From: a virus
Virus record (IMG/VR): IMGVR_UViG_3300005613_000072
Location: 1 to 60,107 of that record
Length of the DNA stretch: 60,107 nucleotides
Direction: 5' to 3' (one strand)
Position numbers and translations under genes: made by a program. Positions 3,261 to 57,338 of the stretch are shown here, piece by piece; the first letter of the stretch is position 1, and each line of letters opens with the position of its first letter. The notes beneath the pieces are model-generated. The model saw only the letters and a program-made list of their open reading frames with translations. It ran no database searches and was not told the DNA's origin.

Positions 3261-5265
3261 ACGAAAACCCCTCGATAGTAGATTCTATATTTTTTTCGTT
3301 GTCAAACCGCAATGATATTCTTTCTACTACCAAGGTGTATTGGTTACCCTGATAACTGTATGCTATAATATCCCCTGGTTTTACTTCTACATAACTTTTC
3401 AAAGTAAGTGTTATGGTAGTTAATCGCGCATTTTCTTTTTCTAAAATATAGTCCGCTAAAGCGTCTATTGTTCCATTAGACTGTCCTTGCATCAATGCCG
3501 CATTATGCTGGTATACATTTTCAGTTCCACCTTTTGCATAGTAACCAAGCAAGATAGTTGAAAAATTTCCTCCCGGATTTTTAACAGGCACAAAAATTTC
3601 AAAGTATATTAACGAATCATAGTCACCAAAAACATTTATCCGAAATTCTCCGGGTGTATCCCCGCTACTTCCACCACTTCCGGAAGGTACACAATCAAAG
3701 TAAATAGATTTATCGGATACTAAAGAACTGGGCTGTATACCTTGAATTCGTAAGTCCTGTCCGGTATATCTCCAGATAGCTTCTTGATCTTCGGAAGATG
3801 GTTCTTGGCGAATATACTGCGAAAGTTCCGGTCTAACAGACACGGTTATAGTTTTTGCATAGTTTGTTGTGTCTAAACTATAACCAGCTAATGCTGATTG
3901 CAAAGAACTTGGATAATTAATATAGTCATAAGTGCCCTCAGATACGGATAAGCCCATCCCTTCTTCGTATTCATCATCAATTACAAACTCAAAAGAAGTA
4001 GAATCAGATACTGGTTCGTCAGTATCTACGGGTAATCCGGTTTGATAATCGATAGCTTGACCAGCAATATATAGTTTATTGTAACATTTTATTTTCACGT
4101 TGGACATAGCAACGTTGGCTCTAAGAAGAGAAAGATTACCGGTAACTTCTATACCATCATAACTACGTGTTGCATTATAAGTTATTGTTCGATCTTCTAT
4201 CATGCTCTGTGGTAGGTTATGTGTAATAGCCATCCCACCATTATTAGCCCTTCTGGCTTCTGCGTGTAGATGTACTACACCATCAACCACAGTTAAAAAA
4301 TATCCGTATGTTTCTGCTGCTGCAACCAATACTTGCCATACAGACTGATCTATAAAAGCAAATGAATCAAAATTTGTATTATGAAAACTTCGATTAAAAT
4401 CATTGTCCCCCATATCTAAAACAAATAATGCGGATGAAGGGGCATTTACGTGTTCTCGTAGAAGCAATGTTATGACATTTTCTATAGTATTAACCCAGTC
4501 GTAAGACATACCGCCTTCATCGTTATATACTAAATAACGTTGTCCATAGTAGGCGGAAGTACTAATTATTTTTTCGGATAAGTATATTTCACTACCCATA
4601 GCTTTTAATGAACTTTTGTTAATATCAACTAATTTCCCCGAAAAAATTGCTTGCCCATCAAGCATAAGAGTTACAGGTATGTCACGATCTATTGGGCTTA
4701 ATGTTTCTACAAATTCTTCTACTGTATCGGTAACATCGTCTTCATCCTCTTCTTCAGAAGAAGAACTACTATCCATATATTCAGCAAGAACAATGGACAC
4801 ATCATAATATTTTACAGTTTCTTCGTAAACAATCGTATTTTTATACGTAATTTCTTTGACAAGGTATTCACCTTTAACAGCATATTGTTTATAATCTGTG
4901 GTCTCCCCAACTCTTTCGCCATAATCAACTTCTACGGGATTTTCAATTTCAACATCTATAAATTCTCCTACAGTTGGGATATCTGAAATATCCATAGCAA
5001 AATAATGTAGCGTAATTTCTTTGTGCGAATTTTCTGGAATATTAGATGAAGAAGATTCCGCTAAATCTTGTATGTTAACTGACAGCGAAGTTATTTCTTT
5101 GTTATTCCTATCATATGTAAATGGAATATCGTTATACACAGCGTCGCCAACCGTCAGGATAGCCCAGTGTATTCCTTCGGGATTTTCTGGGTCTTGGTTT
5201 ATATACTCATCTAAGTCATCAGAACCAAGACCGTAACTAATTTCTTCTGGTTGTAGTGTTAACAT
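3241..5265 (-). CDS. Baseplate hub / tail-associated protein candidate (674 aa)
   Basis: The ATG at 5265 overlaps the stop of the small gene upstream as TAATG. Residues around 165-180 form a striking low-complexity acidic stretch (SSSSSEEEDEDD) separating an N-terminal beta-rich part from a larger domain. The middle contains a segment (SVWQVLVAAAETYGYFL followed by a short strand, VVHLHAEA) that resembles hub proteins of the gp27/Tal type, in which a helix-strand unit precedes a beta domain. The C-terminus (YVEVKPGDIIAYSYQGNQYTL) looks like a beta-barrel end. Placement two genes downstream of the tape measure fits a hub. The hub assignment is inference from order and pattern. Confidence 0.6.
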   Translation of the reverse strand: MLTLQPEEISYGLGSDDLDEYINQDPENPEGIHWAILTVGDAVYNDIPFTYDRNNKEITSLSVNIQDLAESSSSNIPENSHKEITLHYFAMDISDIPTVGEFIDVEIENPVEVDYGERVGETTDYKQYAVKGEYLVKEITYKNTIVYEETVKYYDVSIVLAEYMDSSSSSEEEDEDDVTDTVEEFVETLSPIDRDIPVTLMLDGQAIFSGKLVDINKSSLKAMGSEIYLSEKIISTSAYYGQRYLVYNDEGGMSYDWVNTIENVITLLLREHVNAPSSALFVLDMGDNDFNRSFHNTNFDSFAFIDQSVWQVLVAAAETYGYFLTVVDGVVHLHAEARRANNGGMAITHNLPQSMIEDRTITYNATRSYDGIEVTGNLSLLRANVAMSNVKIKCYNKLYIAGQAIDYQTGLPVDTDEPVSDSTSFEFVIDDEYEEGMGLSVSEGTYDYINYPSSLQSALAGYSLDTTNYAKTITVSVRPELSQYIRQEPSSEDQEAIWRYTGQDLRIQGIQPSSLVSDKSIYFDCVPSGSGGSSGDTPGEFRINVFGDYDSLIYFEIFVPVKNPGGNFSTILLGYYAKGGTENVYQHNAALMQGQSNGTIDALADYILEKENARLTTITLTLKSYVEVKPGDIIAYSYQGNQYTLVVERISLRFDNEKNIESTIEGFSYESITG

Positions 5266-5441
5266 TATTTCACCCCAACAATCGTGGCGGTAACGCCTGT
5301 TAGTATAACCGAAACGCGCCTTCCTACGTCTATACTAAGCGGGGAAAACGCGGAATAAATCTTTCCATTAATGTTTAATCGATAGTAATTCCCGTTTTTA
5401 CTTGTTACAACACCTACGTACAATCTGTAATCAGTCCGCAT
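5265..5441 (-). CDS. Small beta-barrel tail protein (58 aa)
   Basis: This short gene starts at ATG 5441 (MRTDYRLYVGVVTSKNG) and ends with TAA at 5265-5267, sharing an A with the next start codon. Coding is supported by tight coupling on both sides: only two bases separate it from the gene upstream. The pattern GVVTSKNGNYYRLNINGKIYSAF followed by SIDVGRRVSVILTG is one small OB/SH3-like barrel and resembles the N-terminal region of the 972-aa protein (GTITAKNGVRVKI). It probably belongs to the tail tip; its function is unknown. Confidence 0.7.
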   Translation of the reverse strand: MRTDYRLYVGVVTSKNGNYYRLNINGKIYSAFSPLSIDVGRRVSVILTGVTATIVGVK

Positions 5442-36568: not shown

Positions 36569-36813
36569 TTATTGGGGATATTAAGCACACTGTTTTAATT
36601 GGGCAAGAAGGGTGTGCTGCTTGTGAAAAAGTTAAACAAAATCTCGATCTTAAGGGTGAACCATATATTTACATAGATATTAATGATTTGCCAAAAAGTA
36701 TGTCAAAAGAAATTATACGCTGCAGAAAAGAAAATGGCGTTAAAAAAATCGGTGTTCCTTTAGTTATCCAGAACGGGGAACTTCGCATGGGTTTTGAAAA
36801 GTCTGATATGTAA
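36565..36813 (+). CDS. Glutaredoxin/NrdH-like redox protein (82 aa)
   Basis: GTG 36565 overlaps the previous stop (GTGA), with GGGTGG upstream. The thioredoxin-fold pattern VLIGQEGCAACEKVKQNLD carries a CxxC active site, IYIDINDLPKS is the second strand, and VPLVIQNGELRMGFEK supplies the cis-Pro (VP) loop. It sits directly before the ribonucleotide reductase and is probably its electron donor. A second, more diverged paralogue is at 57367. Confidence 0.85.
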   Translation: MIIGDIKHTVLIGQEGCAACEKVKQNLDLKGEPYIYIDINDLPKSMSKEIIRCRKENGVKKIGVPLVIQNGELRMGFEKSDM

Positions 36814-36826
36814 AGAAGGCGGTACT

Positions 36827-39553
36827 GTGAAGGTACAAAAAAGAAACGGCAAGATTATTGATTTTGATGCTAATAAAATATCCAAAGCAATTATGCTCGC
36901 TATGGAAGATACGTTAGTTGGGGTAGACGAAGACTTAGCAATCGAAATTTCCGACGACGTAGTCAAAGAAGTTGCTTCCGAAATAGTTAGTGTTGACACC
37001 ATCCAGGACATGGTGGAATTACATCTTATGTCTTCGGATCGTAAAGACGTAGCTAAGGCTTACATTTTATACCGCGAAAAACGTGATAGGGAACGTCAAC
37101 CAAAGAAAAAACCGGGGATTCTCAGCGAAGAATTTCTCGCGAAGTATAAACACCAAAATCCGTTCCCAACGCAATTAGGCCAGTTTGTGTATTACAGGAC
37201 TTACTCGCGATGGCTTCCGGATAAGAACAGAAGGGAGCAATGGTGGGAAACAGTTAGACGCGCTGTAGAGTATAATTGCTCACTTATTCCTGGGGTTACT
37301 AAAGCGGAAGCTGAAGCTTTATATGATAATGTTTTTAACTTAAGGCTGTTTTTATCCGGGCGTACCTTATGGACTGGTGGAACAGAAGTATCTGCAAAAT
37401 TTCCAAGCAGCTCTTTTAATTGTGCTTTTACCGTAGTGGATAGCTTTAGTTCTTTTGTAGACTTATTCTATCTACTAATGGTAGGAACCGGGTGCGGTAT
37501 TAGGGTATTGCCAGAAGATGTTAGCAAGCTACCAAAAGTACGGACAAACGCGGAAATTATTCATTCTGCATACCAGCCGGTAGCCAAGAAAGAGCGCGTA
37601 GATTTTACGACACTTAGTTTCCCAGCTACTAATATCGCAAAAATTACTGTTGGTGATAGCAAGGAAGGCTGGAAAAATTCCCTTAAGTATTATTTTGAAC
37701 TGCTTACAGCAAGCGAATATGCTGGAATTAACACTATTGTTATAAATTATGACAATGTACGCCCCAAAGGTGAACGTTTACAGACTTTTGGCGGAAAAGC
37801 TTCCGGGCATTCTTCCTTGCAGAATATGTATAAAAAAATTGACCGTGTTATTAAGGGTTATAATACACCGCGGGCAAAACTTAGACCTATTGATTGTATT
37901 GATATTGCCAATATAATTGGTGAAAACGTTACTGTTGGCGGTATTAGACGAACTTCGGAAATTTGTTTAGTATCCCCAGAAGATACTGATTCCATCAATG
38001 CGAAACAAAAATTATATGAATTTATTGATGGCGAATACAAGGTAAACGAGTCTTTGTTACATCGACAGATGTCAAATAATAGCATCTACTACACTGAAAA
38101 ACCTACGCGGGAACAGCTACACGCCCAGTTAGAAAAGATAAAACTTTCTGGAGAGCCCGGATTTGTAAATGCAGAAGCGGCTAAGAAACGTAGAAAAGAT
38201 TTCCACGGCGTAAACCCATGTTTTACCGGAGACATGAAACTAAAAACCGGGGAAGGTTATGAAAGATTTGATGTGTTAGCTAAACAGGGCGAAGGTAAAG
38301 AAAAAGGCTTGTGCAGGGTAGTTAACCACCTTGGATTAGCTACGGATGGAAAAGTATGGTATACCGGTGTAAAAGAAACTGTAGAAGTTGCTTTTGAAAA
38401 TGGCACCAAGATTAAGTGTACCCCCGACCATCAATTTATGCTCTATACCGGAAAACTTTGTAAAGCAGAAAATTTGGCGGGAAAAAAAGTTCTACGATAT
38501 CGTATGGATACACCCGTAAAAGTTCTTTCTGTAACCCCGAATGGCAAGGCTAAAGTCTATGATTTCACAGAACCATCTGCACACTTGGGGGTCGTAGAGG
38601 GTATTATCGTGCATAATTGTGCGGAAGTACTTCTTGCCGACAAAGGCACCTGTAACTTAACTTCTCTAAATGTAGCAGCATTTGTTAAAGACGGTGTTTT
38701 AGACATGGAGTATCTTTTAGCTGCGCAAGTTTTATCCGCAAGAGCTGGATATCGCATGACTAACGTTGAAATGGAGCTACACGATTGGGACTACGTACAA
38801 CGTAGGGATAGACTAACTGGTTGTTCTTTAATGGGGTGGCAAGACCTTGTAAATATGTTAGGGCTATCTAAAGCCAAGGAAAAAGAAATACTTTCAAGCC
38901 TACGTTATACGGCTAAAACAGCTGCTGAAGCTTACGCCGACGAAGCCGGTTTACCTAAGCCGTTGTTAACCACGGTTCAAAAACCAGAAGGTTCTTTGGC
39001 ACAACTCCCTACGGTATCATCTGGTATTCACTATCAGCATTCTGAGTACTTTATTCGTAGGGTTAGAATTAGTGCAACCGATCCATTAGTAAAAGTAGCC
39101 GAAGAACTTGGGTGGATTGTAGAAAATGAAGTGGGGCAAACAGACGAAAACTGCACTATAAAAGTTATTTCCTTCCCTGTAAAAGCACCAGCTGGTAGGA
39201 ATAAGTACGATGTAACGGCAATTGAGCAGCTTGAAAACTACAAAATGTTTATGGAAAACTATGTAGAGCAAAACACATCTATTACCGTTAGTGTGAAAGA
39301 ACATGAATGGGAAGATGTTGAACAGTGGTTATGGGATAACTGGGATGAAGTAATTGCTGTATCATTTCTAAACTTAGATAATTCTTTTTATCAACTAATG
39401 CCATACGAAAAAATTTCGCGCGAAAAGTATTTAGAAATGTCATCAAGCATAAAACCATTCACCCCGTCTCTTCTGTCAAAATATGAAACGGAAGAAATTG
39501 AATTAGATGTTGGTGATGAAGGATGCGAAACAGGCGTATGTCCTATACGTTAG
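36827..39553 (+). CDS. Class II (B12-dependent) ribonucleotide reductase interrupted by an intein (908 aa)
   Basis: I chose GTG 36827 (MKVQKRNGKIIDFDANKISKAI), which has AAGAAGGCGG upstream. Residues 1-90 are an ATP-cone regulatory domain. The catalytic barrel has FVYYRTYSRWLPDKNRREQW, typical of monomeric B12-type reductase (RTPR), SSSFNCAFTV (redox Cys), and, after splicing, NPCAEVLL (thiyl-radical Cys) with TCNLTSLN (second redox Cys). The C-terminus ends CETGVCPIR, a CxxxxC shuttle pair. No separate radical subunit gene is next to it, consistent with class II. Residues 465-597 are an intein. Confidence 0.93.
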   Translation: MKVQKRNGKIIDFDANKISKAIMLAMEDTLVGVDEDLAIEISDDVVKEVASEIVSVDTIQDMVELHLMSSDRKDVAKAYILYREKRDRERQPKKKPGILSEEFLAKYKHQNPFPTQLGQFVYYRTYSRWLPDKNRREQWWETVRRAVEYNCSLIPGVTKAEAEALYDNVFNLRLFLSGRTLWTGGTEVSAKFPSSSFNCAFTVVDSFSSFVDLFYLLMVGTGCGIRVLPEDVSKLPKVRTNAEIIHSAYQPVAKKERVDFTTLSFPATNIAKITVGDSKEGWKNSLKYYFELLTASEYAGINTIVINYDNVRPKGERLQTFGGKASGHSSLQNMYKKIDRVIKGYNTPRAKLRPIDCIDIANIIGENVTVGGIRRTSEICLVSPEDTDSINAKQKLYEFIDGEYKVNESLLHRQMSNNSIYYTEKPTREQLHAQLEKIKLSGEPGFVNAEAAKKRRKDFHGVNPCFTGDMKLKTGEGYERFDVLAKQGEGKEKGLCRVVNHLGLATDGKVWYTGVKETVEVAFENGTKIKCTPDHQFMLYTGKLCKAENLAGKKVLRYRMDTPVKVLSVTPNGKAKVYDFTEPSAHLGVVEGIIVHNCAEVLLADKGTCNLTSLNVAAFVKDGVLDMEYLLAAQVLSARAGYRMTNVEMELHDWDYVQRRDRLTGCSLMGWQDLVNMLGLSKAKEKEILSSLRYTAKTAAEAYADEAGLPKPLLTTVQKPEGSLAQLPTVSSGIHYQHSEYFIRRVRISATDPLVKVAEELGWIVENEVGQTDENCTIKVISFPVKAPAGRNKYDVTAIEQLENYKMFMENYVEQNTSITVSVKEHEWEDVEQWLWDNWDEVIAVSFLNLDNSFYQLMPYEKISREKYLEMSSSIKPFTPSLLSKYETEEIELDVGDEGCETGVCPIR
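38219..38617 (+). other. Mini-intein (133 aa) in the ribonucleotide reductase
   Basis: It begins with Cys (CFTGDMKLKTGEGYERF, block A), has block B GTKIKCTPDHQFMLYTG (the T-x-x-H), and ends with block F KVYDFTEPSAHLGVVEGI followed by IVHN and Cys+1. No homing endonuclease is present. Insertion lies between Pro and Cys of the NPC motif, so the +1 extein residue is the catalytic thiyl-radical cysteine. The exteins join as GVNP plus CAEVLLADKGTC. Confidence 0.93.
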
Positions 39554-46571: not shown

Positions 46572-46594
46572 GTATTTAACTAAAGAAGTTAAAT

Positions 46595-46666
46595 GGGCGC
46601 GTAGCTCAATGGAAGAGCGTCTGACTCATAATCAGTTGGTTGTTGGTTCAATTCCAACCGCGCCCA
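46595..46666 (+). tRNA. tRNA with CAU anticodon (Met or lysidine-Ile2)
   Basis: The 7-bp acceptor GGGCGCG/CGCGCCC, a D arm GCTC/GAGC, an anticodon loop CTCATAA with CAT at 46627-46629, T arm GTTGG/CCAAC and discriminator A form a full cloverleaf. No CCA is encoded. The anticodon stem has a U-U mismatch at 27-43. It is not an initiator (the first pair is G-C and there is no G-rich triple). ATA codons are frequent in the neighbouring genes, so a lysidine-modified Ile2 tRNA is plausible. Confidence 0.95.
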
Positions 46667-46711
46667 TTACTTTTGACAATTGAATAATCCTGCATAAGAG
46701 AGGCGATTTTT

Positions 46712-47551
46712 TTGCTAACCACTTGGTACACTTCGTTAGTTGACGGCGCAGTTAGGCGATATGGGGACTTACCACAGCCGAATAATAAGATTGCAGGAGT
46801 TTCTTCTATAACCGAGTTTGTTAAAGTACGTGGCGGAGAATTTAGACTTGGGAAACCGGATAAAATCCGCGGATTAAAAGACTTACCAAGGCACACAGCA
46901 ATACTAAACTATAACTACTTTATTGGTAAATACACTATAACGGAAAAAACTTTTTCCAGATTTAACGGGGATTACGATATATCGGAACCAAGTATTCCGG
47001 CTACGTCTATAAGTTGGTTTGATGCCTTAGATTTTTGTAACGATGTAAGTAGACTAAACAACTTGCCAGTAGCTTATAATAAGCATGGGGAACTTTTAGA
47101 TCAGTATGGCAATACTACCGTTGATATAACAAAAGTTGTGGGGTACAGGCTACCTACGGAAACAGAATGGGAGTATGCTGCTATAGGCGGTATATCAGAA
47201 CTAAATTTTCAATTTTCTGGAAGTAACATTATTGATTATGTAGGTTGGCATAAAGATAATTCTGGTAATCATTTACATGAGGTAGGTGAATTACAATCTA
47301 ATACCTTGGGAATTTTTGATATGACTGGAAACGTAAATGAGTGGTGTTATGATTCCTTTGATTATGGAAACCCGGAATTTTTTAAGGAGACTATAAATAA
47401 CATAGGCGGTTATACGGGAGCTTACAAAATTGTGCGCGGAGGAAGTTGGGCAGACCCAGTTGGGCACTGTGCTATTACATACAGGGATTACTGCGCACCA
47501 CACCAGAAATACCCCGTTATAGGCTTTAGACTTACAAGAACTGAAGTATAA
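46712..47551 (+). CDS. FGE-sulfatase/C-type-lectin-fold protein (279 aa)
   Basis: TTG 46712 is preceded by GAGAGGCG. The SUMF1/FGE fold is evident: VRGGEFRLG, TEKTFSRFNG, ATSISWFDALDFCNDVSRL, YRLPTETEWEYAA, FDMTGNVNEWCYD, IVRGGSWADP and a final GFRLTRTE. The catalytic Cys pair of true formylglycine enzymes is not conserved (CAITYRDYC instead of CxxxxC), so a binding role is more likely. No reverse transcriptase or template repeat is present, so it is not shown to be diversified. Confidence 0.88.
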   Translation: MLTTWYTSLVDGAVRRYGDLPQPNNKIAGVSSITEFVKVRGGEFRLGKPDKIRGLKDLPRHTAILNYNYFIGKYTITEKTFSRFNGDYDISEPSIPATSISWFDALDFCNDVSRLNNLPVAYNKHGELLDQYGNTTVDITKVVGYRLPTETEWEYAAIGGISELNFQFSGSNIIDYVGWHKDNSGNHLHEVGELQSNTLGIFDMTGNVNEWCYDSFDYGNPEFFKETINNIGGYTGAYKIVRGGSWADPVGHCAITYRDYCAPHQKYPVIGFRLTRTEV

Positions 47552-47576
47552 ACCCACACAAAATCGGAGGAAAAAA

Positions 47577-48767
47577 ATGTTATCTAAACCCAAACTTTTT
47601 GTAATGTCGTTGCAACATTTGTTAGCAATGTTTGGCGCAACTGTGCTTGTACCGGTACTGGTAGGGATTCCGCCTTCCGTGGCGTTGTTTACGTCCGGTG
47701 TAGGAACCTTAATTTTCCATTGGTGTACAAAATTCAAGGTACCGGCTTACCTTGGTAGCTCTTTTGCGTATATTGCACCAATTATTACAGTAACATCTTA
47801 CTACGCGGCTAACGGAAATAACGTTGATGCTATTGCGTATGCAACCGGTGGTATTCTTTTAGCGGGTTTTGTAAAAATGCTCTTTGCCTACTTGATGTAT
47901 AAAATTGGCATCGAAAAAATTACAAAAGTTTTTACGCCGGTTATTACGGGAACCATGATTGTACTAATAGGGTTGATCTTAGCTCCTGTGGCGGTAGATA
48001 TGGCAGCCACGAACTGGCTACTGGCTGCAGCCACAATCTTAATGGTTATTGTCACTAAAAGCTTTGGTAAAGGTTTTATTAAGCTACTTCCAATTATTGT
48101 TGGAGCTCTTTCTGGATATTTGTTAGCTTTGGCTATTGGTGAAGTTAGTTTTGAATTTACAAGTTTTATTAGCATTCCTAAGTTTGTTTTGCCGAAATTT
48201 TCTTGGTTTGCTATTAGCGTAGTAGTGCCAGCAGCTATTGCACCGGCAATTGAACATATTGGTGATATTTTTGTTATATCGGAAACAGCAGAAAAACCTT
48301 TCTATAAAGACCCGGGTATGCACAGAACGCTTCTTGGGGATGGATTAGCCACTTCTTTTGCCGGATTACTTGGCGGCCCCGCTAATACAACCTACTCGGA
48401 GAATACTGGGGTAATGGCTCTAACTAAAGTTTATGATCCAGTCATTATGCGAGTTGCCGCGATTTTTGCTATTATCTTATCTTTTTTCCCGCCCGTAGAA
48501 GCGCTTATCATGAGTATTCCACAGTCTGTAATGGGCGGTATTAGTATCTTTTTGTTTGGTATGATTGCTTCTATTGGTATGAAAGTACTGGTCCATAATA
48601 AGGTTAAATTCACAGACAAAAACTTGATTATCATGTCTTTAATGTTGATTTCTGGACTTGGTGGAGCCGCTTTTTCTTACGGAGAATTTATCTTGCAAGG
48701 ATTGGGGTTAGCTGCTGTTATAGGGGTACTTCTACAGTTAGTCTTGCCTAACAACAAGGAAGTATAA
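47577..48767 (+). CDS. NCS2 uracil/xanthine permease, UraA-like (396 aa)
   Basis: An inner-membrane protein with about 12-14 hydrophobic segments. It starts MLSKPKLFVMSLQHLLAMFGA, the NCS2 QH motif, and carries PAIEHIGDIFVISETAEKPF and AGLLGGPANTTYSENTGVMALT, the uracil-permease helix regions with the substrate-contacting E residues. It imports uracil or a related base with protons. Upstream has CGGAGG. Such transporters are very unusual in phages; nucleobase salvage to feed the large dTTP need is a reasonable role. Confidence 0.93.
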   Translation: MLSKPKLFVMSLQHLLAMFGATVLVPVLVGIPPSVALFTSGVGTLIFHWCTKFKVPAYLGSSFAYIAPIITVTSYYAANGNNVDAIAYATGGILLAGFVKMLFAYLMYKIGIEKITKVFTPVITGTMIVLIGLILAPVAVDMAATNWLLAAATILMVIVTKSFGKGFIKLLPIIVGALSGYLLALAIGEVSFEFTSFISIPKFVLPKFSWFAISVVVPAAIAPAIEHIGDIFVISETAEKPFYKDPGMHRTLLGDGLATSFAGLLGGPANTTYSENTGVMALTKVYDPVIMRVAAIFAIILSFFPPVEALIMSIPQSVMGGISIFLFGMIASIGMKVLVHNKVKFTDKNLIIMSLMLISGLGGAAFSYGEFILQGLGLAAVIGVLLQLVLPNNKEV

Positions 48768-48792
48768 CCCTACTTGAGGGGGAAAATTATAG

Positions 48793-49512
48793 ATGTTTAG
48801 TCAGATAGTTTCTTTTAGTGGCGGTAAAGATAGTACCGCCATGCTTCTTATGATGCTGGAAAAAGGGATGCAGGTAGACGAAATAATTTTCGTTGATACA
48901 ACAAAAGAATTTCCGGAAATTTATAGGAATATCACTAAAGTAGAAGCCTACATTGGTAGAAAAGTCACTAAAGTAGCTATTGATTTTGATTACTGGTTTA
49001 AGGATATTGATCATAAATCTAAAGATCGCAACGGATATGGCTGGCCAACACCAAAAAATAGATGGTGTACAGGACGTAAACGAGGTGCTTTTAATCAAGC
49101 TGCTAAGGGACGAAAGTATGATTCACATACTCAAAATCGTACTACACCACCACGAAGAGCCGATATCTACTTGGGAATTGCTGCAGATGAACCACGTAGA
49201 ATAAGAGACATTAAAAATACCCACTACCCATTAGCGGAATGGGGAATTACTGAAGCACAAGCACTACAGTACTGCTATGACCATGGATTTGACTTTGAAG
49301 GTGCTTACGAACACTTTCGTTCATTATCTTGCTATTTATGCCCTTTTCACACATTAGACCAAACAGAAGCGGTTTATAATTACTACCCTGAACAATGGAA
49401 AGATATGCTTCGTTTAGACGATTACGCACACAACCTATACAAAAATAAGTATCGCATCGCAGACTTGCCGGCTATATTTGAACAACGCAGGCTAAAAAAG
49501 AAGGTGGAATAA
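48793..49512 (+). CDS. PP-loop (PAPS reductase-like) protein (239 aa)
   Basis: The N-terminus has the PP-loop SFSGGKDSTAMLLMML. RWCTGRKRGAFNQA and FRSLSCYLCPFHTLDQ supply cysteines that could bind metal or a cluster. The family includes PAPS reductases and DndC-type sulfur-transfer ATPases. In phages such proteins adjoin methyltransferases. A sulfur or nucleotide modification role is possible but not proven. It overlaps the FAD protein start by 1 base. Confidence 0.82.
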   Translation: MFSQIVSFSGGKDSTAMLLMMLEKGMQVDEIIFVDTTKEFPEIYRNITKVEAYIGRKVTKVAIDFDYWFKDIDHKSKDRNGYGWPTPKNRWCTGRKRGAFNQAAKGRKYDSHTQNRTTPPRRADIYLGIAADEPRRIRDIKNTHYPLAEWGITEAQALQYCYDHGFDFEGAYEHFRSLSCYLCPFHTLDQTEAVYNYYPEQWKDMLRLDDYAHNLYKNKYRIADLPAIFEQRRLKKKVE

Positions 49513-50926: not shown

Positions 50927-51924
50927 GGGTAAGTTATGGAAAATATTATCGAACAATTACTGGAAAGTACTGGAAAACTAACAACCCGCAAAAAAGGTGT
51001 ATTGGCGGAAAAGTATGTTGTCTCACCTTTTTCTATACTATACACTCGTGACGGTAGCTGGCAAAGCAGAAAAAAAGCATGGCTTAGCTTAGGATTACGA
51101 AGCGAACTTGGAAGGGATAAGGCATTAACATACCCACAAATAGAAAATCGCACTGATTTTGTAGGCGAAGCTATCAAAGCAAAGGGCGGTACAAGCGTAT
51201 TTGATCCGGTACTAACAGAATGTTTATACCGCTGGTTTACGGGCACTAATTACCAAGTTATTGATCCTTTTGCCGGTGGGTCTGTGCGTGGGATTATAGC
51301 GGGTTTAATGGGAAGAAAATACTGGGGATGCGACCTAAGCCAAAAGCAAATCAGTGCAAATAAACAACAAGCAGAAAGTATTATTATAAAAAGGAATGAG
51401 CCTAAGTTTCATGTTCCAGTATGGATTACAGGAGATAGTTTAACCGAAATGTATACAGCACCACAAGCAGATTTTATATTAACTTGCCCACCGTATGGCC
51501 AGTTAGAAAAATATAGTGATGACCCGCGAGATTTATCAAATATGGATTATAATACATTTATAGACGTTTACGGGAAAATAATTTCCATAAGCATTGAAAA
51601 ACTGAAAGATAATAGATTTTGCGCAATTGTTGTTGGAAATTTCCGTAATAAATTAGGTTTCTACGAGGATTTTGTTGGGGATACAGTACGCATATTTCAA
51701 AAAGAGGGCGCGAAATTATACAATGATGCTATATTAGTAAATCAGATAGGCACTGGTGCTATAAGGGCTTCGAGTCACTTTGACCCGGGACGTAAACTTG
51801 TAAAAATGCACCAAAATGTACTGGTATTCTGTAAAGGTGATTGGCGACAAGCCACGCAAGAGTTAAAAACTGGAGGCGTATTATGATTATGCAAAAAACT
51901 TTTTTGCCAAAAAAAGGTAATTTA
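50870..51924 (+). repeat. 33-bp imperfect direct repeats bracketing a methyltransferase gene
   Basis: AAAAAACTTTTTTGCC followed by AAAAAAAGGTA(G/A)TTTA occurs at 50870-50902 and 51892-51924 (about 31 of 33 identical). The first is the end of the 70-aa gene; the second starts a 31-codon remnant frame. The gene between is a complete DNA methyltransferase. Confidence 0.9.
50936..51886 (+). CDS. DNA methyltransferase with CPPY motif (316 aa)
   Basis: Motif I DPFAGGSVRGIIAGL (AdoMet binding) and catalytic motif IV LTCPPYGQLEKY define an N4-cytosine or N6-adenine methylase. The order (X region, I, IV) and the 'dPFaGs' form are of the beta/gamma type. AAGGGTAAG precedes the ATG. It is bracketed by 33-bp imperfect direct repeats (50870-50902, 51892-51924). 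It likely protects DNA from host restriction; the target site cannot be read from sequence. Confidence 0.88.
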   Translation: MENIIEQLLESTGKLTTRKKGVLAEKYVVSPFSILYTRDGSWQSRKKAWLSLGLRSELGRDKALTYPQIENRTDFVGEAIKAKGGTSVFDPVLTECLYRWFTGTNYQVIDPFAGGSVRGIIAGLMGRKYWGCDLSQKQISANKQQAESIIIKRNEPKFHVPVWITGDSLTEMYTAPQADFILTCPPYGQLEKYSDDPRDLSNMDYNTFIDVYGKIISISIEKLKDNRFCAIVVGNFRNKLGFYEDFVGDTVRIFQKEGAKLYNDAILVNQIGTGAIRASSHFDPGRKLVKMHQNVLVFCKGDWRQATQELKTGGVL

Positions 51925-52605: not shown

Positions 52606-53667
52606 ATGAATGTGTTAAGCTTATTTGATGGTATGTCATGTGGTCAAATTGCGCTTGAAAGATCGGGGATCAAAGTTGAAAATTACTTTGCTTCTGAGAT
52701 TGATAAATATACTATACAAGTAACTAAACACAATTACCCAAACACAAAACATATAGGGGATGTAACAAAGGTTAAAGGTACCGATTTACCCAAAATAGAT
52801 TTATTAATAGGCGGGAGTCCGTGCCAAGGATTTAGTTTTGCGGGTAAACAGTTAAACTTTGAGGACCCAAGAAGCAAATTGTTTTTTGACTTTGTAAGAT
52901 TACTGCAAGAAACAAAACCTAAATATTTTTTACTCGAAAATGTGGTGATGAAACAAGAATATCAAGATATAATAAGTCAACATTTAGGTATTAAGCCCAT
53001 TTTAATAAATAGTAGTTTAGTTTCTGCCCAAAATAGAAAACGCCTTTACTGGACTAACATACCAAATATAACCAAACCACAGGATAAAGGTATAACCTGG
53101 GGCGATGTTAGAGAGTATGGCGTAAATACTGAGAGCTATTACTATACAGATAAAGCAATGCAGTGGTTAGCGAGAGTAAGCCAAAAGAAAAACAAACCTT
53201 TAACTGTACATTCTAACAACGATAAGATGCAGATGCTTGAAGCAAGTCATTATAAAAAATATAGTAATCAACGGTTTTTTGGGATTGTGGATTTGCCAGA
53301 AAATAAACAAGCAGTTGCGGGAATGAGAGGGCGTTATTTAATTAATGGTAAAGCGCAGATTGGAAAACAAAGTTTAAAAGGACTAACAAAGCAATACATT
53401 GAGTTTAAATACGACGGAAAAACTAATGCTCTAACTACTGTCGCAAAAGATAATGTAGTAGTACCTTTTACTTTACCAAATAGAGTACCTGCCGATGAAT
53501 TTTTCTTTCGTTATTTAACGCCTTTAGAATGTGAAAGATTACAAACAGTGCCGGATAACTATACAGTTTGTGTAAGTAATACGCAAAGATACCGAATGCT
53601 GGGCAATGGATGGACTGTCGATGTGATTGCACATATCTTTAAGGGATTGTTAAAGGATGTATTGTAA
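52606..53667 (+). CDS. DNA cytosine-5 methyltransferase (353 aa)
   Basis: The C5-methylase motifs are present: I SLFDGMSCGQIALERSG, IV GGSPCQGFSFAG (catalytic Cys in PCQ), VI LENV, VIII AQNRKRLYW, and X RYRMLGNGWTVDVIAHIF. The variable segment of about 140 residues between VIII and IX is the target-recognition part. TAGGGG-type DNMT3-like N-terminus MNVLSLFDGMSCGQ is common in phage methylases. GAGGAG precedes the ATG. The target sequence is unknown. Confidence 0.93.
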   Translation: MNVLSLFDGMSCGQIALERSGIKVENYFASEIDKYTIQVTKHNYPNTKHIGDVTKVKGTDLPKIDLLIGGSPCQGFSFAGKQLNFEDPRSKLFFDFVRLLQETKPKYFLLENVVMKQEYQDIISQHLGIKPILINSSLVSAQNRKRLYWTNIPNITKPQDKGITWGDVREYGVNTESYYYTDKAMQWLARVSQKKNKPLTVHSNNDKMQMLEASHYKKYSNQRFFGIVDLPENKQAVAGMRGRYLINGKAQIGKQSLKGLTKQYIEFKYDGKTNALTTVAKDNVVVPFTLPNRVPADEFFFRYLTPLECERLQTVPDNYTVCVSNTQRYRMLGNGWTVDVIAHIFKGLLKDVL

Positions 53668-56140: not shown

Positions 56141-56172
56141 TTCGCGCAAAAAAAGAGGTAATAATATGATAA
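56141..56172 (+). repeat. Direct repeat (left) flanking a methyltransferase gene
   Basis: TTCGCGCAAAAAAAGAGGTA, continuing ATAATATGATAA, recurs in near-identical form at 57344-57373 (CGCGAAAAAAAGAGGTAAT, then ACTATGATAA) and partly at 57612-57630. The repeat contains the ribosome binding site and start codon of both following genes. Confidence 0.85.
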
Positions 56173-57338
56173 ATATTAATCTAATACAAGGTAACTGTTT
56201 AGAAAAACTAAAAAATATTCCTAATGAAAGTATAGAAGCTATTGTATGTGATCCCCCATATGAGCTAAACTTGATGAATAAAAAATGGGACAATACGGGA
56301 ATTGCATATAATATAGATTTATGGAAAGAATGTTTTAGGGTACTAAAGCCAGGAGGACATTTAACAGCTTTCGGGGGCACAAGAACTTATCACAGAATGG
56401 CTGTAGCTATTGAAGACGCTGGATTTGAAGTAAGAGATATGTTAGAGTGGATATATGCAAGCGGATTCCCAAAAAATTTAGATGTAGGCAAGGCAGTAGA
56501 TAAGCTGTGTGGTAACGAAAGAACGAATTTAGGCGCTGTACGCGGCTGTGGAAATAATAATACAGAATCAATGAATAACGGCGTAAAAAAATCAAGTGAG
56601 TTTAAGCCTACATACACTTTAACTAAAGGCTCTTCTGAATGGGAAGGTTTTGGTACGGCTCTTAAACCAGCCCATGAACCAATCATCCTTTGTAGAAAAC
56701 CTTTATCAGAGAAAAATATCGCAAAAAATGTACTAAAACATGGAACAGGTGCAATTGACATTGACGGATGTAGAATACCGACAAATGACTTAACACCAAG
56801 AAACAACAGGGAATCTGCAACATGGGGGACTTATGGTAATGGGTATGCTGCACCTTCCCCACACGGCCGTTTTCCAGCCAATATTATCTGTACAGATGAT
56901 GCTTTAAATGACCACGGAAGTACAGTAGAATCAAAATCCCGTTACTTTGACATAGATGTCTGGGCAGAAAAACACGGGCTACTCCAATTCCCAAAAGCAA
57001 GTAAAAAAGAAAGAAACGAAGGGTGTGATGGATTAGAAAAGAAAAATCTTGCAGGAAGTAATAAATGGACAGACGTTGACTATAGAAAAGGGGACGGAAA
57101 AATTACAGCACAACCACAACACAACCACCATCCAACAGTCAAACCAATTCATCTTATATCCTGGCTTATAAGACTAATCAGCAAAAAAGGCGGCACAGTT
57201 TTAGATCCATTTATGGGTTCAGGAACAACAGGTGTTGCTTGTGCAAATCTTGATCGTAATTTCGTTGGTATCGAACTTAATGCCGATTATTTCAAAATTG
57301 CAGAAAAACGAATAAACGCAGCCCGTTTAGACACATAA
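56166..57338 (+). CDS. DNA methyltransferase with DPPY motif (390 aa)
   Basis: Motif IV CDPPYELNLMNKKWDN and motif I LDPFMGSGTTGVACANL (C-terminal) again give the beta order. WIYASGFPKNLDVGKAVD and KPAHEPIILCRKPL are hallmark segments of phage N6A/N4C methylases. Codon use is ordinary, in contrast to the two A/C-biased genes on either side. AAGAGG precedes the ATG. It looks like a recent insertion between them. Confidence 0.92.
   Translation: MININLIQGNCLEKLKNIPNESIEAIVCDPPYELNLMNKKWDNTGIAYNIDLWKECFRVLKPGGHLTAFGGTRTYHRMAVAIEDAGFEVRDMLEWIYASGFPKNLDVGKAVDKLCGNERTNLGAVRGCGNNNTESMNNGVKKSSEFKPTYTLTKGSSEWEGFGTALKPAHEPIILCRKPLSEKNIAKNVLKHGTGAIDIDGCRIPTNDLTPRNNRESATWGTYGNGYAAPSPHGRFPANIICTDDALNDHGSTVESKSRYFDIDVWAEKHGLLQFPKASKKERNEGCDGLEKKNLAGSNKWTDVDYRKGDGKITAQPQHNHHPTVKPIHLISWLIRLISKKGGTVLDPFMGSGTTGVACANLDRNFVGIELNADYFKIAEKRINAARLDT

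Follow-up and report, generated by a model that had tools for sequence, protein, structure and literature searches.

An in-frame insert in the ribonucleotide reductase gene of a phage, carried by the 60,107-base IMG/VR virus record IMGVR_UViG_3300005613_000072 (the whole of which is called the window here), is with high probability a class 1 cis-splicing mini-intein at the active site of a monomeric-type class II reductase, formed by loss of a LAGLIDADG endonuclease within a widespread phage intein family. This reading rests on the sequence and position of the insert, its catalytic residues, its predicted fold, the existence of endonuclease-bearing alleles and purifying selection in its relatives. 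Inteins in phage reductases are already well known, and the one described here is unremarkable as a mini-intein, occupies a recurrent site and is one of many in these enzymes. The parts of the gene are the following.

36827..39553, + strand: predicted precursor of an adenosylcobalamin-dependent class II ribonucleotide reductase (RTPR/NrdJm), 908 residues, GTG start, stop codon at 39551-39553
36827..38218, + strand: N-extein, ending in HGVNP, with Pro464 as residue -1; gapless alignment to intein-free relatives
38219..38617, + strand: predicted class 1 cis-splicing mini-intein, C1 to N133, 133 residues (TIGR01445 and PF14890 above cut-off; AlphaFold2; Foldseek)
38402..38443, + strand: block B, G62 to L75, with T68-x-x-H71; T68 and H71 in 19/19 mini-inteins
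38507..38512, + strand: point at about D97/T98 where full-length relatives hold a LAGLIDADG domain, by alignment (LAGLIDADG_3 in five alleles)
38552..38617, + strand: blocks F and G, KVYDFTEPSAHLGVVEGIIVHN, with D115, H132 and N133, all three in 19/19 mini-inteins
38618..38620, + strand: Cys598, predicted +1 splicing nucleophile and thiyl-radical cysteine of the mature enzyme; aligned with residue 408 of 1l1l (the Lactobacillus leichmannii RTPR) and invariant among the aligned phage reductases
38618..39550, + strand: C-extein, CAEVLL...CETGVCPIR, in which Cys609, Cys900 and Cys905 align with 1l1l residues 419, 731 and 736

The insert comprises 399 nucleotides (133 codons) and corresponds to residues 465-597 of the precursor. 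Numbered from the GTG at 36827, Cys465 is encoded at 38219, His596-Asn597 at 38612-38617 and Cys598 at 38618. An earlier annotation of this DNA, referred to below as the original prediction, had placed a 133-residue mini-intein at precisely these positions and with these residue numbers, and two intein models matched it above their curated cut-offs: TIGR01445 (intein_Nterm) with 34.2 bits against 24.5 (E 3.9e-8), and PF14890 (Intein_splicing) with 38.9 against 35.8 (E 9.8e-10). The class 1 features are present, namely Cys1 as the first residue, T68-x-x-H71, D115, and H132-N133 followed by Cys598, in agreement with the earlier statement that the splicing blocks are complete; these blocks are known as A, B, F and G. 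Among 19 mini-inteins shorter than 140 residues, the one in the window included, T68, H71, D115, H132 and N133 occur in all 19 and Cys1 in 18. No LAGLIDADG domain was found in the 133 residues, as had also been predicted, and by its sequence the insert is a mini-intein, a class defined by the lack of a homing endonuclease domain and a length below about 170 residues.

AlphaFold2, run with a 13-row alignment, gave the insert a Hint fold with a mean predicted local distance difference test (pLDDT) score of 94.2. The top Foldseek matches of this model in the PDB were all inteins, with NpuDnaE as the best (E 9e-9, template modelling (TM) score 0.83); the TM score by query length to 4kl5 was 0.83, and the list also included the NrdJ-1 split intein 8ubs (E 3.6e-7). 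A model of the whole precursor, made without an alignment, had a pLDDT of 33.9 and was not used.

The insert lies between Pro464 and the cysteine aligned with L. leichmannii Cys408, a site written here as NP^C, the caret marking the insertion point. Joined without it, the exteins form a protein of 775 residues that aligns gaplessly over the junction to the intein-free phage RTPRs L002 (with ATP cone; 56-57% identity to the joined exteins), L004 (57-58%) and L006 (52-53%) and to that of Thermus phage P23-45 (39-42%). The original prediction had named this alignment as its refuting test, and it passes through the junction undisturbed. The guanine-plus-cytosine content of the intein (0.41) is about that of the exteins (0.40), and there is thus no sign of a very recent arrival.

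By far the best NCBIfam model for the reductase reading frame was TIGR02505 (E 1.2e-99), whose score for the precursor, 334.4 bits, is slightly below the curated cut-off of 340.05. Pfam found the ATP cone, the reductase alpha domain and the class II insertion domain (RNR-II_ins_dom, 34.4 against a cut-off of 27), all above cut-off. The best solved relative in a phmmer search was 1l1l (E 5e-52), whose residues 119, 408, 419, 731 and 736 are its catalytic cysteines, residue 408 being the one that carries the thiyl radical. All five are kept, the aligned residues of the precursor being Cys199, Cys598, Cys609, Cys900 and Cys905. The original prediction is thus borne out in placing the insert of a phage class II reductase directly before the catalytic cysteine and in taking this cysteine of the NPC motif as the +1 residue. 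We classify the predicted enzyme, which has an ATP cone, as a B12-dependent class II reductase of the monomeric type (RTPR/NrdJm). Two further features of the N-extein belong here.

36827..37090, + strand: N-terminal ATP-cone domain, residues 1-88 (Pfam PF03477, E 2.3e-20)
37421..37423, + strand: Cys199, aligned with 1l1l residue 119; a different intein lies just before the equivalent cysteine in some relatives (L063, L080)

The window intein was 54% identical to the mini allele L026 and 48% to the endonuclease-bearing allele L029, both at NP^C; in a separate comparison its best matches were L102 (52%) and L176 (47%). Identity to seven IMG/VR alleles ranged from 42 to 54%, to the mini-inteins L022, L024, L026 and L027 (contigs of L109, L107, L102 and L112, respectively) from 44 to 54%, and to the Nodularia phage inteins from 36 to 39% over the shared part. 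In a profile scan of seven longer NP^C alleles, LAGLIDADG_3 was found in five (L029, L047, L012, L014 and L053) and a LAGLIDADG match remained below threshold in two, L056 and that of Thermus phage P23-45_stolb1 (stolb1 for short). L026 (126 residues) and L029 (324 residues) have nearly identical N- and C-terminal parts, the difference between them being the endonuclease region, which shows endonuclease loss.

A tree of splicing domains was built from 60 rows and 140 columns, with identical domains collapsed; its bootstrap had not settled. L101, L139 and L178 were left out of the trees and of the table of unique rows since their C-terminal junction was unreadable or the reductase context was missing, and L179, of which only the C-terminal part is present, had been excluded earlier. 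The window fell inside a phage reductase intein clade of 56 rows (99/94 support), within which its place showed no resolved branching. The window intein can thus be assigned to the phage reductase active-site intein family as an allele of the NP^C kind.

Splicing would follow the established chemistry of class 1 inteins. Cys465 (Cys1 of the intein) would take the Pro464 carbonyl as a thioester in an N-S shift aided by T68 and H71, and the chain would be transferred to Cys598. His596 would then assist the cyclisation of Asn597, and an S-N shift would join Pro464 to Cys598, so that NPC would be restored in the mature enzyme and Cys598 would be free for the thiyl radical. As Cys598 sits at the splice junction, it is safe to infer that the precursor would be inactive until spliced.

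In nine pairs of related mini-inteins (groups L108-L111 and L103-L105) the ratio of nonsynonymous to synonymous substitution rates (dN/dS) was 0.07-0.16. The corresponding C-exteins (200 codons) gave 0.04-0.16 at similar dS. These mini-inteins appear to be under purifying selection as strong as that on their exteins and very probably splice, because a non-splicing insert would hardly stay so constrained. From the sequence we infer splicing in the window phage as well.

Several observations weigh against this reading. The search for relatives yielded none close enough to the window intein for a selection test of its own. Residue -1 is a proline, and a proline at this position is reported to impair the splicing of the Mth RIR1 mini-intein in Escherichia coli. 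The window intein also has K9 where 18/19 mini-inteins have Leu, L123 where 17/19 have Trp, and about seven extra residues after position 20 compared with the other mini-inteins.

The original prediction had further proposed redox or zinc control. In its general form, the intein would be kept as a switch that blocks reductase activity until splicing is released by a redox, metal or temperature signal, which we consider improbable. The expected inactivity of the precursor, with Cys598 at the junction, agrees with such a role, and the -1 proline could slow the first step. The four cysteines of the window intein recur to different extents among the 19 mini-inteins: C1 in 18, C67 in 18, C81 in 15 and C32 in one. 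C67, however, is present in mini and full-length alleles alike and thus need not be a switch. There is no CxxC and no convincing conserved cysteine pair, and residue -3 is Val, so that an N-extein cysteine of the redox-trap kind is missing; the sequence gives the proposal of redox or zinc control no support. Most relatives (65/79) have no intein at the radical-cysteine site, and control is therefore not generally needed. A precedent for an intein affecting reductase maturation comes from Aquifex R2, whose intein is flanked by iron ligands; the intein-bearing construct gave a product with more iron and twice the activity (PMC8772380). Cys81 (38459-38461) can by eye also be seen in many, but not all, full-length rows. 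Its use as a functional mark exclusive to mini-inteins was dropped, given its presence in full-length rows and the relatedness of the rows.

A dead remnant, that is an intein past splicing in a pseudogene, is still less probable. K9 and L123 do deviate at conserved positions and the selection data come from relatives, but the catalytic intein residues are intact, the frame is open over 908 codons, the five catalytic cysteines of the exteins are kept and the fold is predicted with confidence. We give practically no weight to another Hint domain (bacterial intein-like or hedgehog-like) or to an insertion native to the enzyme, because, although hedgehog and bacterial intein-like structures occur lower in the Foldseek list, the top folds are inteins, the insert ends in His-Asn followed by Cys, and the exteins are continuous with intein-free relatives. 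With a splicing mini-intein as the preferred reading, the element most likely persists because its exact removal is hard and imprecise loss would kill the enzyme, and not for regulation.

The occupation of the site was examined in two scans of IMG/VR, which had some contigs in common (e.g. L026 and L102). One, with a reductase alignment as the query, yielded 304 relatives, from which 79 distinct loci were retained; this set leans to carriers because the query contained the intein. NP^C was occupied in 14 of these loci. A scan with an intein alignment gave 83 relatives at 78 distinct loci (L102-L179). The intein was at NP^C in 62, one codon downstream (NPC^) in 13 and after IPC in one (L172, with just 15 residues of open frame upstream), the remaining two being L178, in another protein, and L179. 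Mini-inteins of 125-135 residues were present in 18 of the 78 loci (L102-L115, L117, L122, L124 and L176), 15 at NP^C and three at NPC^ (L106, L113 and L122). The host proteins scanned for nine representatives of the 78 loci were class II in all nine cases, the best model being RTPR (monomeric type) in five and NrdJ_Z or PRK08665 in four. A family intein at NP^C is also found, in two frames, in L101 (3995-4980), an Atribacteria metagenome-assembled genome and the sole match in a scan of genomes. Its N part ends after 76 residues and its C part follows about 700 nucleotides on in another frame, which could reflect either a frameshift or a split intein.

Among 50,697 INPHARED records, 1273 had a reductase match. 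Ten were examined, and as these were picked partly for being long or intein-annotated they do not give a rate; intein boundaries could be measured at the radical-cysteine position in seven of them. Inteins at NP^C were found in Nodularia phages kac65v151 and 2AV2 (336 residues), Thermus phages G20c (332) and stolb1 (230), and a Manatee Spring phage (370, beginning with Ser1), and at NL^C, the equivalent site of class I enzymes, in Corynebacterium phage P1201 (159) and Sphingomonas phage PAU (151). Thermus phage TSP4 has an NP^C intein too, with a stop codon within it, P23-45 has none, and phiLo has one at another position. The alignment with reductase inteins that the original prediction had called for thus places the window at NP^C together with 62 of the 78 IMG/VR loci. 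Its suggestion that a minimal intein at this residue of a phage class II enzyme is notable was overstated, since 62/78 loci are at NP^C, 15 of them mini (18/78 mini in all), and annotated phages share the site.

Fourteen of the 78 loci (13 NPC^, and L172 at IPC^) carry an intein of this family shifted downstream by one codon, which makes the radical cysteine residue -1. In the 13 NPC^ loci with a readable C-terminal junction the +1 residue was Ser or Cys (Ser in eight and Cys in three of the 11 unique rows). In the 47 unique NP^C rows, which include the window, G20c and stolb1, the residue after the cysteine was Gly in 26, Ala in 16, His in three, and Val and Ser in one each. Full-length inteins from one site are homologous over their whole length to those from the other, the endonuclease included (L146 and L172, 49% over 326 residues). 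A full-length tree was built from 37 long inteins, including the long rows L138 and L125 and excluding the mini-inteins and two Thermus inteins. Its eight NPC^ rows did not form one clade, well-supported branches forced at least three changes, and NPC^ monophyly was rejected with moderate strength (approximately unbiased test, p-AU 0.026); the insertion point therefore seems to have changed by one codon more than once. On the splicing-domain tree the site label was hardly more clustered than in shuffles (77/500 as low, site b), and that tree alone would thus not show repeated shifts. On balance we favour the view that a single family of phage inteins has switched repeatedly between NP^C and NPC^[S/C], flanking the thiyl-radical cysteine. 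At NPC^ a different residue would do the splicing, and at NP^C the radical cysteine would be the +1 nucleophile; the window intein belongs to the NP^C kind and lacks the endonuclease. No description of this one-codon shift was found in the literature searched, most subscription journals being outside its coverage, which is weak evidence of absence.

Among known systems, the inteins of Nodularia phages kac65v151 and 2AV2 and Thermus phages G20c, stolb1 and TSP4 lie, like that of the window, precisely at the NP^C site in phage RTPRs, with 230-336 residues against 133. Those of Nodularia and G20c keep a LAGLIDADG domain, unlike the window; that of stolb1 is shorter and gave no LAGLIDADG match. 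The Nodularia reductase product is annotated as 'intein-containing RnR'. The P1201 and PAU mini-inteins are also inserted before the equivalent cysteine (NL^C) and are too short for an endonuclease domain, but their host enzyme is class I, their identity to the window intein is 26-33%, and they fall outside the family on the splicing-domain tree. The nearest studied case is the Mth RIR1 mini-intein (134 residues, archaeal reductase, -1 Pro, +1 Cys), which resembles the window intein in its near-equal size, -1 Pro and +1 Cys and differs in its archaeal host. NrdJ-1, a metagenomic intein of a class II reductase, matches the window insert in fold (8ubs) and is split; presumably its site is NPC^S, the one-codon-shifted site of 13/78 loci. 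In a phmmer search of the PDB, NrdJ-1 gave no sequence match to the window intein or to two NPC^ inteins. Several inteins of the present family have 125 residues, about the length of the split gp41-1 intein. A lower size of 134 residues is given for natural mini-inteins in a published account (PMC4031507). Other publications term the G20c intein 'a likely intein' (PMC6459318), describe a P1201 nrdE with an RIR1 intein as functionally active and list phage reductase inteins, citing two nrdJ cases from ocean metagenomes (PMC3653736), count eight intein-containing sequences among about 18,700 curated marine viral reductases (PMC12918982), and regard phage inteins in active centres as a general pattern (PMC5050341). 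The literature covered, which took in few subscription journals, contained no description of a mini-intein occupying NP^C in a class II enzyme of a phage, an absence that carries little weight.

Related reductase genes are interrupted elsewhere as well. Different inteins of 311 and 147 residues, the latter again of mini size, lie just before the equivalent of Cys199 (1l1l residue 119) in L063 (4001-7267) and L080 (3575-6349), respectively, and reductase inteins therefore target two catalytic cysteines. Intein-like inserts of 361-390 residues occur at other conserved motifs in L028 and L061 (after GVRR) and in L033 (after KPEG), L028 having two inteins within one reductase gene. In L117 (~4380-5308), L150 (~2690) and L067 (~5110) the frame stops a few residues past the NPCG that contains the radical cysteine. 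The reductase of L117 resumes about 900 nucleotides later, as if an intron adjoined the intein site. An Rfam search of the interrupted relatives L117, L067 and L026 gave no significant match and no intron. A group I intron (RF00028, 66.2 bits) was found within a phage reductase gene in L069 (5490-5741).

The window also encodes a terminase, portal and head proteins, a helicase, a sliding clamp and the thymidylate synthase ThyX. Immediately upstream of the reductase lies a possible candidate for its reductant:

36574..36813, + strand: glutaredoxin-like open reading frame (PF00462, 24.1 bits against 22.9)

At 46594-49512 a tRNA-Met gene is followed by genes for an FGE-sulfatase-like protein, an NCS2 nucleobase permease and a PAPS-reductase-like protein; to our knowledge a membrane permease of the NCS2 kind is unusual in a phage. 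Near one end of the window lie three genes that resemble DNA methyltransferases (50936-51886, 52606-53667 and 56166-57338) and represent two types, N6/N4 and C5.

For the window alone the result is modest. For the family, it identifies the radical cysteine of phage class II reductases as a hot spot for one large intein family, in which mini and endonuclease-bearing alleles stand side by side as a natural series for endonuclease loss. The family is also useful for studying minimal inteins down to 125 residues and the one-codon shift of the insertion point.

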